Positions 59,092-63,609 of a stretch of DNA of 64,000 nt are shown here, one piece after another (position 1 is the stretch's first letter; each line of letters begins with the position of its first letter). The translations under genes and the position numbers were made by a program. The stretch is from positions 248,001 through 312,000 of the forward strand of contig NZ_SIHJ01000005.1 of the NCBI RefSeq assembly GCF_007859765.1, given 5' to 3'. The notes beneath the pieces are model-generated. The model saw nothing but the letters and a program-made list of their open reading frames with translations. It had not been told where the DNA came from and ran no database searches. Source of the DNA: Posidoniimonas corsicana. Lineage in GTDB: Bacteria; Planctomycetota; Planctomycetia; Pirellulales; Lacipirellulaceae.

Positions 59092-59808
59092 CTACAGCTT
59101 CTTGAGCGCCGCGACCACGTCGCGGGGCTCGGCCCGCTTCTTGTAGTCGGCGTCCAGGAACGCATAGCGGATCACGCCGTTGGTGTCGATGACGTAGGTC
59201 GCGGCCAGCGGCAGCTCGAACCGGTCGTCGCCGTTGAAGTCGGCCAGCTTCAGCCGGTCGCGGTAGGTCGGCAGGATCACCTGCGGCAGCTTGAACACGA
59301 TGCCCAGCTTCTTCGCCACCGCGTTGTGCTTGTCGGACAGGACCTGAAACGTGAGGTTGTGCTTGTCGATGGTCTCGGCGACCTTTTCCGGCATCTCGGG
59401 GGCGACCGCCGCCACCCTGGCGCCGACGCCCTCGAGCGCCGCGACCGACTTCTGCAGGTTCTGCAGCTGCAGGTTGCAGTACGGGCACCAGCCGCCACGG
59501 TAGAACGTCAGCACGAGCGGTCCGTCGGCCCACAGCGAGCTGAACTCCACTGGCTTGCCGTCGATGTCGTAGAGCACGCCCTTGGGCGCCTTGTCGCCAA
59601 CGTTGGCCGCTTTGTCGAGCATGCCGGTGTCGCGGACGTCGGTCACGCCCTGGGCAAACCGCTCGAGCATCTCGGACGGCATCCGGTCGGCCGCAGACTG
59701 GCTCATCTTTTCGAGCTCCGGTTTCAGCAGCGGCGGCTCGTCAGCGCTGGTGCGGACGGCAGCGAGGGCGACGATCACGAGCAGCAGGCTGCGGACGGCA
59801 CAGGTCAT
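59092..59808 (-). CDS. Exported AhpC/TSA-type peroxiredoxin
   Basis: 238 residues from ATG 59808, with a signal peptide (AVRSLLLVIVALAAVRTSA). The thioredoxin fold has VLTFYRGGWCPYCNLQL with a CxxC active site in place of the single peroxidatic Cys of classical peroxiredoxins, followed by VAAVAPEMPEKVAETIDKHN and FQVLSDKHNAVAKKLGIVF. VIDTNGVIRYAFLDADYKKR ends the fold. It probably reduces peroxides or handles thiols outside the cytoplasm. Neighbouring respiratory genes make an oxidative role plausible. Confidence 0.87.
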   Translation of the reverse strand: MTCAVRSLLLVIVALAAVRTSADEPPLLKPELEKMSQSAADRMPSEMLERFAQGVTDVRDTGMLDKAANVGDKAPKGVLYDIDGKPVEFSSLWADGPLVLTFYRGGWCPYCNLQLQNLQKSVAALEGVGARVAAVAPEMPEKVAETIDKHNLTFQVLSDKHNAVAKKLGIVFKLPQVILPTYRDRLKLADFNGDDRFELPLAATYVIDTNGVIRYAFLDADYKKRAEPRDVVAALKKL

Positions 59809-59913: not shown

Positions 59914-60978
59914 TCACGTTCCCGGCGAATCGGCGTCGACCGGCGGGCGGCACGCGATGCGGACGACCCAAACGATCAGCCCGGCGTTCATCGCTAGCAG
60001 AGCCGCAAACAGCCACCAGCCGCCGACCCGGGCGGCCGCGGCGTGGGCCTCGTAGTACTCGGTGATGTCGACCGCCGTGAGCCGGCGCAGCTCCCGCAGC
60101 ACCGTGACGCCGGCGGCGGTGAGCACCGCCGCCGCTGACAGCCCCAACCACAGTTCGGCGCGCAGTTGGCGACCACGCCAGACCATCGTCCACAACGCCA
60201 CCTGGGCGACCCAGCCGATCAGCCCCAGCGTCAGCCACGGCCAGCCGACCGACACGACCGACTGGCGGGCGTCGGCGGGGAGCTGGAAGTAATACACCAC
60301 ACCGGCCGCCGCCGCGGCGACAAGCGACGGCAGCGCCACCCGCGCCAGCGCCTTGCGGGCCGACGGGACCTGCCAAGCGAGGATCATGGACAGCATCGGG
60401 AACGCCCCAACCCACCACAACGCCAGCCGGGCCGGAAGCTCGCGGTCGCCGTAGAACCAGCCGCCGCGGGCGTACTGCTCGATCCACACGTCCTGACCGC
60501 GGGTGCTGAGCACGTGGTTCTCGGTCCAGCTCCAGGCGACGAAACCGAAGCAGAGGAAGATGCCGACCGACACCAGCATCCGCACCACCGCGGGGCGGGC
60601 CTGGAACCGTTTGGACTTCTGCAGGTACAGCAGATAGAACGCCACGATCAGCACCGGCAGGATCGCCATCCAGCGGTGCAGCAGCAGCAGGTTGGCCGTG
60701 TAGAAGGGCTGTTTGTACAGCACCTGCAGGAACAACAGCGGCGCCACGCCGGCGGTGATTGCTACGCTCAGCGCGAACGGCATCCAGTCCCGCAGACCGG
60801 CTGCGATCCGCTGGTGGGCGTCGCTGACCCCGCCCCGTGCGGCCTCCCAGACGCCGAGCAGCGCCAGGTAGCTCGATCCGGCCAGCACATAATTCATTGG
60901 CACGACGTGCAGCACCAGCGTGCCGAGGTACAGCACCAGGTAGAACGCGGTGGAGGCGGGCTGGTCGAACGGGAACAT
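59914..60978 (-). CDS. Multi-pass membrane partner of the CydA-like cytochrome
   Basis: 354 residues from ATG 60978, with about nine hydrophobic segments. Features include FYLVLYLGTLVLHVVPMNYV with a His in the first helix, LLLLHRWMAILPVLIVAFYL, SWTENHVLSTRGQDVW in a loop and DITEYYEAHAAAARVGGWWL near the end. Conserved-looking His and Glu residues in or beside helices could ligate haem or conduct protons. No family name is secure. It lies 75 bases after the CydA-like gene on the same strand and probably replaces CydB; that is inference. Confidence 0.65.
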   Translation of the reverse strand: MFPFDQPASTAFYLVLYLGTLVLHVVPMNYVLAGSSYLALLGVWEAARGGVSDAHQRIAAGLRDWMPFALSVAITAGVAPLLFLQVLYKQPFYTANLLLLHRWMAILPVLIVAFYLLYLQKSKRFQARPAVVRMLVSVGIFLCFGFVAWSWTENHVLSTRGQDVWIEQYARGGWFYGDRELPARLALWWVGAFPMLSMILAWQVPSARKALARVALPSLVAAAAAGVVYYFQLPADARQSVVSVGWPWLTLGLIGWVAQVALWTMVWRGRQLRAELWLGLSAAAVLTAAGVTVLRELRRLTAVDITEYYEAHAAAARVGGWWLFAALLAMNAGLIVWVVRIACRPPVDADSPGT

Positions 60979-61034
60979 GGGAGGGAGTGGTTGGTTGCTG
61001 GTGGTGAGTGGTAGGTGGAGGGTGGTGGGGGGTG

Positions 61035-61062
61035 AGTGGCTAGTGGCTAGTGGCTAGTGGTT
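61035..61062. repeat. Four tandem 7-base units at the end of the CydA-like gene
   Basis: AGTGGCT occurs three times in a row (61035-61055) followed by AGTGGTT (61056-61062); the minus-strand stop codon at 61054-61056 is inside it. Each unit carries TAG in one frame. It extends a G/T-rich stretch between the two respiratory genes. Confidence 0.8.
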
Positions 61063-62469
61063 AGAGTCTGCCGAGCTACCCACCCTGACGCCCGGTTCGA
61101 CGCCCACCTCGTCAAGGTGGCGCTGGATCTGGGCGATGACCCGCGGGTCGTCGGTAGCGAGCCAGCCGTCCGGCTTGTCGGCGTGCCCCCAGCGGAGCCA
61201 CTGCACAAGCGCCTCGAGCTCTTCCGGCGTGCCGGCGAACGGCGGCATGAAGTTCTTGGTGCGTTGCAGCTGCGCAATGTTCAGCCGCAGCTGGTCGTCG
61301 GTCCAGCCGCTGGTCAGGTGGGCCAGCCCGTTGGCGCCGTCCCAGGTGTGGCAGACGCTGCACTGCACGCGGAACACGTGGGCCCCCAGCCCGAGCTGCT
61401 CGGGCAGCTCACGCTCGCCCCGCAACGGGTAGGGGTCGCCGGTGGTGCACCCCTCGCGGCGGAACCTGGCCACCTCGTCCTGTGTAATGGAGTTGGAGTA
61501 GAGCGTGCCGTGCACGGTGTACGGCTTGCGGATCCCCTCGCGAACGAATTCGGCGCCGGCGGTGGCGCCAAACCCCAGCGCAATCAGCAGCGCCGCGGTC
61601 GCGCCGTTGACGGTCATGCTCTTTTTGAGCAGCAACACCACCGCGTAGCCGCCGATCAGCGCCGACGCGCCAACGCCAATCCCCAGGAACATCGTCATCG
61701 CGATGCTGCCGCCCATCGCCCACGTGCGCGACGCCTCGGGCACGGCCGCCAGGAACCAGGCGCCCAAGAGCGGCATCACGGCCATCGGTGCGAGGAACCG
61801 GAACGACGCGTGCACCAGCCGCCGCCGCTCCTCAGCGTCGAACCGGGAACTGAGGTTCACCACCAGGCAGGCGACCAGCGCCGCGGTAGCCATCGACGAT
61901 AGCGTGCGGAAGATCAGCGACGGCCAGAACGTCGGGTTAAAGAACCCCTGCCAGACGCTGTGCGTTTCGTGCCAGGCGCCAGGGGTGAGCTGCCACGAGA
62001 GGATGCCGTTGATCCAGAACAGGCTCATCCACGCGGCCAGCGAGTACATCAGCAGGAGCGTCAGCCGGCTGCGTGGGTCGAGCGTCGGGCCGCGCCGGTA
62101 GAACGCGTAACCGGCGGCGACCTCCAGACAGAAGAACGTCCACTCGATGGCCCACACCCAGTGGAACTCGTCGACCATCAGCCCGATGGTCCGCGGGCTG
62201 ATCTGGATGGTAGTGAACCACATCGCCACGCCGGTCACCGCGCCGGTGACGAACGACACCAGCACCAGCACACGGAATAGGCCGTCGATGAAGCGGGTGT
62301 AGAGCTCGCCGCCGTCGGCGCCGCCGCGCATCGACCGCCACTGGAACCAGCTCATCAGCAGCCCGCCGCCGATCGCGAACTGGGCCAGGTACACGTGGAA
62401 AATACCCAGCCCCCCGATAATCATCCCCTTCATCACGGGGCCGAAATCGTTGACCGGGTAGTAGAACAT
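61054..62469 (-). CDS. CydA-like membrane protein fused to a cytochrome c domain
   Basis: 471 residues from ATG 62469. Residues 1-305 hold about eight or nine hydrophobic helices with a layout like cytochrome bd subunit I: His25 in the first helix (FHVYLAQFAIGGG), VTGVAMWFTTIQISPRT, and the Glu pair Glu109/Glu116 in WAIEWTFFCLEVAAGYAFYR. Where CydA usually has a haem b558 His after a Trp-Pro (FLHM-like), this reads FWPSLIFRT, with Arg188. The GRQPW loop of CydA is not seen. Residues 360-430 are a c-type cytochrome: QCSVCHTWDG (370-374) with candidate axial Met408 (KNFMPPFAG). It may receive electrons by cytochrome c. The 354-aa partner follows. Confidence 0.72.
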   Translation of the reverse strand: MFYYPVNDFGPVMKGMIIGGLGIFHVYLAQFAIGGGLLMSWFQWRSMRGGADGGELYTRFIDGLFRVLVLVSFVTGAVTGVAMWFTTIQISPRTIGLMVDEFHWVWAIEWTFFCLEVAAGYAFYRRGPTLDPRSRLTLLLMYSLAAWMSLFWINGILSWQLTPGAWHETHSVWQGFFNPTFWPSLIFRTLSSMATAALVACLVVNLSSRFDAEERRRLVHASFRFLAPMAVMPLLGAWFLAAVPEASRTWAMGGSIAMTMFLGIGVGASALIGGYAVVLLLKKSMTVNGATAALLIALGFGATAGAEFVREGIRKPYTVHGTLYSNSITQDEVARFRREGCTTGDPYPLRGERELPEQLGLGAHVFRVQCSVCHTWDGANGLAHLTSGWTDDQLRLNIAQLQRTKNFMPPFAGTPEELEALVQWLRWGHADKPDGWLATDDPRVIAQIQRHLDEVGVEPGVRVGSSADSNH

Positions 62470-62703: not shown

Positions 62704-63609
62704 GTGGGCATTTACGACCGCGACTACGAACGACAAGGCCAGTGGCGCGACAGCTACGGCGGGGGGGGTGGTATCCAACTCCGGTTCCCTGAGACGAGCG
62801 TCAACCGCATCGTGCTGGTGACGCTGCTGGCGTACCTCGTTGAGGTCGTCTTCTTCAGCTCGCCCGACGGCAACCTGTGGGTCCGCTGGCTCAGCCTGTG
62901 GTCCAACTGGTTCTACTTCCCGTGGGAGGCATACCAGCTGCTGACCTACTCGCTGGTGCACGACCCGCACAGCATCTGGCACGTGGCGGGCAACATGTTC
63001 GGCGTGTGGATGTTCGGGCGTCAGCTGGAGCAGCGGTTCGGCAGCCGTGAGTTTATGCTTTACTATCTGGGCGCGGTCCTCGCCGGCGGGCTGGCAATCA
63101 CGCTGTACAACGTTGTTGTTCCGTCCGCGCAGCCGTTCCCGACGCTAGGCGCCTCGGCCGGGACGGTGGCGGTGATCCTGCTCTACGCCCTGCTCTACCC
63201 GCACCAAACGGTGCTGCTGTTCGCGGTGTTCCCAATCCCGATGTGGGTGCTGGGGGCGTTCATCGTGGGCCAGGACGTCATGCGGGCGCTCAGCACCGAC
63301 GCGGACGGCGTCTCGTTCCAAGGGCACCTCGGCGGGGCGGCCTTCGCCGCGGCGTACCACTTTCAGCGTTGGCGGCTGTCGAACTGGGTCCCACAGGAGT
63401 TCAAGCTGCCATCCCTTAAGCGCAGGCCAAAGCTCCGGGTGCACACCGCCCCGGACGACGAGCAGAACGAATCGCAAGACAAGCTGCGAGACGAGGTTGA
63501 CCGCATCCTGAAGAAGATCAGCGACCAGGGGTCGGACAGCCTAACGAGCAAAGAGAAGCGCCTGATGCAGAGGGCGAGCCGCGAGTTCAAGGGACGCCGG
63601 CAGTTGTGA
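62704..63609 (+). CDS. Rhomboid-family intramembrane serine protease
   Basis: 301 residues from GTG 62704. Cleaves transmembrane substrates within the bilayer. About six helices; HVAGNMFGVW (the HxxxN-like helix-2 motif), PTLGASAGTVAVI with catalytic Ser151 and FQGHLGGAAFAAAYH with catalytic His208. A soluble, charged C-terminal tail (about 235-301; DEQNESQDKLRDEVDRILKK, SLTSKEKRLMQRASRE) is planctomycete-like. The substrate is unknown. It precedes the epimerase by 27 bases. Confidence 0.92.
   Translation: MGIYDRDYERQGQWRDSYGGGGGIQLRFPETSVNRIVLVTLLAYLVEVVFFSSPDGNLWVRWLSLWSNWFYFPWEAYQLLTYSLVHDPHSIWHVAGNMFGVWMFGRQLEQRFGSREFMLYYLGAVLAGGLAITLYNVVVPSAQPFPTLGASAGTVAVILLYALLYPHQTVLLFAVFPIPMWVLGAFIVGQDVMRALSTDADGVSFQGHLGGAAFAAAYHFQRWRLSNWVPQEFKLPSLKRRPKLRVHTAPDDEQNESQDKLRDEVDRILKKISDQGSDSLTSKEKRLMQRASREFKGRRQL

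Follow-up and report, generated by a model that had tools for sequence, protein, structure and literature searches.

All cytochrome bd enzymes that have been characterized biochemically are quinol oxidases (PMC8509429). In the bd-II enzyme of E. coli, His186 and Met393 are the ligands of haem b558, Glu445 that of haem b595 and His19 that of haem d (PMC8585947), Glu107 acts as the proton donor in E. coli (PMC13189123), and in the solved bd structures haems b558, b595 and d all lie on one side of the membrane (PMC9846854). Papers citing Murali et al. (2021) divide the bd superfamily into three families, qOR, OR-C and OR-N, only one of which has a quinol site (PMC13189123, PMC10839748). The non-quinol families proposed in that study are, in the reviews that take up the proposal, described as having no characterized member (PMC8509429, PMC10839748), and a bd-superfamily enzyme with a non-quinol donor was, according to the 2021 review, still to be obtained (PMC8509429). 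For the OR-N proteins, cytochrome c is the presumed donor and a pair of CydA paralogues the presumed make-up (PMC10839748), and an association with ACIII has been reported for OR-N5 (PMC12342949).

The window analysed here, a stretch of 64,000 nucleotides from Posidoniimonas corsicana, contains a pair of genes, termed A and B. Together they probably encode a bd-superfamily enzyme that acts as a cytochrome c:O2 oxidoreductase, with OR-C as its most likely family; A would keep the high-spin haem pair and B would stand in the place of CydB. The features of the pair are listed below, with the evidence for each in brackets.

61054..62469, minus strand: fused subunit A, 471 aa, with a diverged CydA core and a C-terminal cytochrome c domain (ORF call, Pfam, AF2)
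61534..62430, minus strand: CydA-like membrane core of A, residues 14-312, eight predicted TM helices (AF2 model)
62395..62397, minus strand: His25 of A, equivalent of E. coli His19 (joint alignment)
62143..62145, minus strand: Glu109 of A, equivalent of E. coli Glu99 (joint alignment)
62122..62124, minus strand: Glu116 of A, equivalent of E. coli Glu107 (joint alignment)
61909..61911, minus strand: Phe187 of A, at the position of the haem b558 ligand His186 (ligand lost), with the invariant Arg188 next to it (joint alignment)
61519..61542, minus strand: REGIRKPY of A (310-317), an altered GRQPW motif, with Glu311 as the Glu445 equivalent (hhalign)
61183..61401, minus strand: cytochrome c domain of A, residues ~357-429, predicted periplasmic (Pfam, AF2, positive-inside rule)
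61348..61362, minus strand: CSVCH haem c attachment motif of A (370-374) (CxxCH conservation)
61246..61248, minus strand: Met408 of A, probable distal haem c ligand (invariant in alignment A1)
59914..60978, minus strand: partner subunit B, CydA-prime-like, 354 aa, without a haem c motif (profile match to A, AF2)
60907..60909, minus strand: His24 of B, aligned with His25 of A (kept in 57/58 partners)
60082..60096, minus strand: RELRR of B (295-299), aligned with REGIR of A (310-314) (profile alignment)

The two open reading frames were recovered with the coordinates and strand given in the initial annotation, and the gap between them is 75 bp. The order proposed there, a CydA-like region followed by cytochrome c, agrees with the Pfam matches of A to PF01654 (cytochrome bd subunit I; E 1.3e-11, residues 23-237) and to Cytochrome_CBB3 (E 7.5e-9, residues 362-425); the suggested search of the N-terminal region against CydA families thus came out favourably, the match being to PF01654 and not to a non-respiratory family. 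No NCBIfam family matched A, no family in Pfam or NCBIfam matched B, and a sequence search of solved structures returned weak cytochrome c6-type domains only for A and nothing meaningful for B. The spacer between the genes (60979-61056) is in frame with both and contains one TAG only, and at its start, surrounding the stop codon, stands a short repeat of CCACTAG.

The residues of A were compared in a joint alignment of 41 family members, 23 qOR and 5 OR-N-like sequences. The column of His25 holds His in every sequence (41/41, 23/23 and 5/5, respectively), that of Glu109 holds Glu in 41/41 family members and 23/23 qOR and Tyr in 5/5 OR-N-like sequences, and that of Glu116 is invariant in the 41 family members and also in the 23 qOR. 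A profile of A (alignment A1) matched the qOR CydA profile with Prob 98.5 and E 1.6e-15, and this alignment pairs His25 with His19, Glu109 with Glu99 and Glu116 with Glu107. Within alignment A1, which holds 34 relatives, His25, both glutamates, CxxCH and Met408 are invariant, and all of these, including CSVCH at 370-374, lie where the initial annotation had placed them. CxxCH occurs in every one of 115 distinct full-length relatives; together with the conservation in the 34 aligned relatives, this is far beyond chance. The GRQPW motif, previously called not seen, exists in the altered form GIRKPY: the segment FVREGIRKPYTV of A aligns without gaps to FVAEYGRQPWAI of E. coli (hhalign E 3e-4), and by this alignment Glu311 is the equivalent of Glu445. 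The motif RExxRKP[YF] was found in 111 of the 115 distinct full-length relatives.

The position of His186 has fared differently: every qOR (23/23) and every OR-N-like sequence (5/5) has His there, and no family member (0/41) does; ligation of haem b558 from this column is thus missing in A, where the residue is Phe187. The loss of the b558 His had been noticed earlier, and only its position needs correction, since Arg188, named as the replacement, lies one residue on; this Arg is common to the family and the OR-N-like proteins. The Q-loop is also missing from A, the loop between TM6 and TM7 having about 14 residues in the AF2 model, and a global profile alignment of A with qOR leaves the Q-loop unaligned. 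Given the ligands of E. coli bd-II, the residue census and the match of Glu311 to Glu445 show that A has retained the ligands of the O2 site and has lost the electron-entry haem b558 and the quinol loop. Nevertheless, the active site of A is not identical to that of E. coli bd, because the spacing between the two glutamates is 7 in A versus 8 in E. coli, and because Trp84 takes the position of E. coli Glu74, as Trp does in 41/41 family members.

Since a single TAG is all that interrupts the common reading frame of the two genes, AF2 could be given A and B as one read-through chain, joined by a linker of 26 residues, and the pair folded as a pseudo-complex; the input was 102 sequences, of which 16 were fused rows. 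The model (mean pLDDT 93.6, pTM 0.92) has eight TM helices in A before the cytochrome c domain, and not the nine previously claimed for the CydA-like region, and nine TM helices in B. The contact between A and B in this model is suggestive only, because the chain is covalent and the linker favours contact. Comparison by VIA-align gave Z 29-33 against all ten cytochrome bd entries among the matches listed, and the next fold was that of the ACIII (NrfD-type) subunits at Z 18. The CydA four-helix core and the equivalents of the ligands His19, Glu99, Glu107 and Glu445, by which the bd superfamily is recognized, are found in A, and both sequence and predicted fold place A inside this superfamily; a complex "distinct from bd", as first proposed, is thus distinct from the quinol-oxidizing bd enzymes and not from the superfamily. 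Membership of A in ACIII was considered separately and rejected, PF01654 being the best family and the fold scores being those given above.

In the loops of A, 13 Lys and Arg residues are assigned to the inside and 3 to the outside, so that, by the positive-inside rule, both the N-terminus and the cytochrome c domain probably lie outside. The cytochrome c domain comes directly after Glu311 and Arg314 and, if it lies outside, it is predicted to replace TM9, on the side of the membrane that carries haems b558, b595 and d in solved bd structures.

Profile comparison (hhalign) related B to A with Prob 96.2 and E 2.5e-9 over 276 columns. In a second set-up the value was Prob 94.9, whereas CydB reached 4.6, qOR CydA 6.2 and a reversed-profile control 5.2, and over all comparisons of B with A Prob ranged from 87.6 to 96.2; column-shuffle controls gave scores of at most 22.5 versus 66.7. 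His24, Arg184 and RExxR of B sit at the places of His25, Arg188 and RExxR in A, and R295 and R299 are nearly invariant among partners; the TM3 glutamates of A are not kept in B. Folded alone, B gave a model of pLDDT 95 with Z 24-25 against bd subunits, and by fold alone CydA and CydB were indistinguishable for B. By its sequence profiles, B is best described as a diverged CydA paralogue, CydA'. A 354-aa multi-pass partner in the same direction had indeed been described in the initial annotation, where its identity as a CydA paralogue went unrecognized. The identification of B as CydB was rejected, since hhalign gave Prob 1.8 and 4.6 against CydB and nothing above background. The archaeal CydAA' of Caldivirga, reportedly described by Murali and co-workers in 2021, is a quinol oxidase made of two CydA paralogues; it resembles the pair in having two such paralogues and differs from it in being driven by quinol and in lacking haem c.

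In a tree of the N-terminal core, the A family forms one clade (UFboot 99), sister to the OR-N-like proteins, with both apart from qOR; the OR-N-like set was chosen by architecture and phylum and not by published labels, and its members found by phylum search lie in open frames of 608-713 aa. OR-N proteins (CydAA' of Nitrospira, Nitrospina and anammox bacteria) have, like the pair, a bd-like core without a quinol site. The OR-N-like proteins keep the b558 His and lack Glu99, whereas in A the opposite is found, and A does not cluster with OR-N-like CydA but falls in its separate clade. On these grounds A does not belong to the OR-N-like family, the Nitrospira group raised earlier as a possible home. 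Canonical qOR enzymes (CydAB; E. coli bd-I and bd-II, 6RX4, 7OY2) share with A the CydA fold and its set of four ligand equivalents; unlike A, they have haem b558 (His186/Met393), the Q-loop, Glu74, TM9 and CydB, and have no haem c. There is a very low probability that the pair is nothing more than a diverged form of a canonical, quinol-driven bd oxidase or of an OR-N enzyme of the Nitrospira type: such an origin would fit the common superfamily and fold, but not the separate clade, the missing b558 His, Glu74 and Q-loop, the fused haem c or the partner profile without a CydB match. We take the CydA of OR-C to carry a haem c domain, and A both carries a cytochrome c domain and lacks a quinol site. 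As presented in papers citing the original proposal, OR-C resembles A in lying within the bd superfamily without a quinol site and has cytochrome c as its proposed donor, and it is by these papers that we regard the A-B pair as most likely of the OR-C kind.

Among 199 genomes of the class, 38 have relatives of A and 36 have relatives of B, and the two sets of genomes are almost identical. At least 576 relatives of A turned up when named genomes were scanned; the 80 best belong to Planctomycetota, Myxococcota (Polyangium, Kofleriaceae), Tectomicrobia, Chloroflexota, Chthonomonas and others; Polyangium fumosum, Limnoglobus roseus and Aeoliella straminimaris are cultured, genome-named carriers of the pair. 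In every one of the 77 evaluable loci among these best 80 of at least 576 relatives, B adjoins A and has the same orientation; 3/80 named loci were left out of the count since the locus runs to the contig end, and the two genes overlap by 1 or 4 bases in 43/77. Conservation of the partner across Planctomycetes, which had been suggested as a check, is therefore borne out. PF01654 misses clear orthologues in five of the class genomes (G016, G021, G053, G057 and G065); for this reason the family is easily missed in annotation and is probably under-annotated.

Across phyla, no conserved neighbourhood was found beyond the A-B pair itself. Two distant planctomycete relatives (L062:4577-8757 and L118:2644-6751) have the gene order B - Rieske - cytochrome b - A, and in a third distant relative (L122) a partial cytochrome b gene adjoins A. 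Because Rieske and cytochrome b genes lie inside the pair in the first two, and a piece of cytochrome b lies beside A in the third, these operons tie the family to a bc complex as its putative electron source. Such bc-linked operons occur in distant relatives and not beside the window genes. Genes for several haem-copper oxidase subunits I, for a cytochrome b of the bc type, for a cytochrome c assembly protein and for an NrfD protein like that of ACIII lie elsewhere in the genome to which the window belongs. No gene resembling that for ActB, the molybdopterin/FeS subunit of ACIII, was present among the neighbours scanned, no PF02322 match (CydB) was obtained in the window genome, and A was the only CydA homologue found there, with no second CydA.

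An oxidase and a quinol:cytochrome c reductase-like unit had both been proposed for the pair, and we favour the oxidase because the ligands of the O2 site are kept and the quinol site is missing. It is unlikely that the pair is a quinol:cytochrome c (or cytochrome c:quinone) oxidoreductase, i.e. an ACIII-like or reverse-electron-transport unit and not an oxidase. A similar role has been proposed for bd-like proteins of Nitrospina and Kuenenia (PMC3578206), and the NrfD-type subunits of ACIII are the next-best fold match, but the short TM6-TM7 loop and the absent b558 His argue against it, as does the invariance of the O2-site ligands, including the Glu109 that is missing from OR-N-like proteins, and a dedicated bc complex, as in some of the operons, would already oxidize quinol. 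Slightly less likely still is a bd-type enzyme fed by cytochrome c whose substrate is NO, peroxide or scavenged O2, with little energy conservation. Canonical bd oxidases do detoxify NO and O2 (PMC10839748), the distribution within the class is patchy, and the host also has haem-copper oxidases. Directly downstream of B, on the same strand, lies a gene for an AhpC/TSA-type peroxiredoxin (59092-59808), and this would suit detoxification; however, a peroxiredoxin gene follows the pair only in the window and in two close relatives (L072 and L074), and respiration is indicated both by the conservation of the ligands for O2 reduction and by the operons that include bc genes.

Our preferred reading remains a cytochrome c-driven oxidase, and the cytochrome c-linked membrane redox complex first envisaged is upheld in outline, the quinol/b558 module having been lost, haem c gained and the partner conserved. 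In this enzyme A would keep the high-spin haem pair for O2 reduction (His25, Glu109, Glu116 and Glu311) and would have a periplasmic cytochrome c domain in place of haem b558, the Q-loop and TM9, while B would take the place of CydB in the complex. A donor in the periplasm, either a reduced cytochrome c or a cupredoxin, would be reduced by a bc or ACIII-like complex and pass electrons to haem c (Cys370/Cys373/His374 and Met408), from which they would reach the haem pair (His25, Glu311 and Glu109) and finally O2, with protons drawn from the cytoplasm past Glu116. We infer the presence of haem d, or of any haem, at the core of A from its ligands; the overall haem complement, the electron donor, O2 as acceptor, electron transfer in A without b558 and the joining of A and B into one complex are likewise what this scheme would predict. 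More tentatively, and with rather less confidence, it is possible that a widespread bd-type cytochrome c oxidase of two CydA paralogues, without b558, forms one unit with a bc complex in some lineages, as a dedicated quinol - bc - haem c - bd module unlike any characterized oxidase. The pair offers a compact, well-conserved candidate for a non-quinol bd-superfamily enzyme, with explicit predictions at the level of residues. If our reading is true, a bd haem pair can reduce O2 without haem b558, and a CydA paralogue can serve in place of CydB as the second subunit.

Several loci show further variation. In the closest relative, a member of the same genus, A and B are split by an insert of 907 bp that carries an ORF on the opposite strand (L072:6719-7628). 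At L209:5995-9723 two consecutive cytochrome c-fused CydA genes are followed by the partner, an apparent local duplication in which the second copy of A stands between A and B. The partner at L065:6208-8040 is about 600 aa long, as are those of L066, L068 and L069; in L065 the CydA'-like part is followed by three fused cytochrome c domains, and a fragment of an Fe/Mn superoxide dismutase adjoins the partner. The partner in one distant relative matches PF01654 weakly (E 7.5e-5, below the curated cut-off) in addition to three cytochrome c domains. In the window itself, a divergently transcribed gene at 62704-63609 encodes a rhomboid protease with a C-terminal DUF6576 domain.
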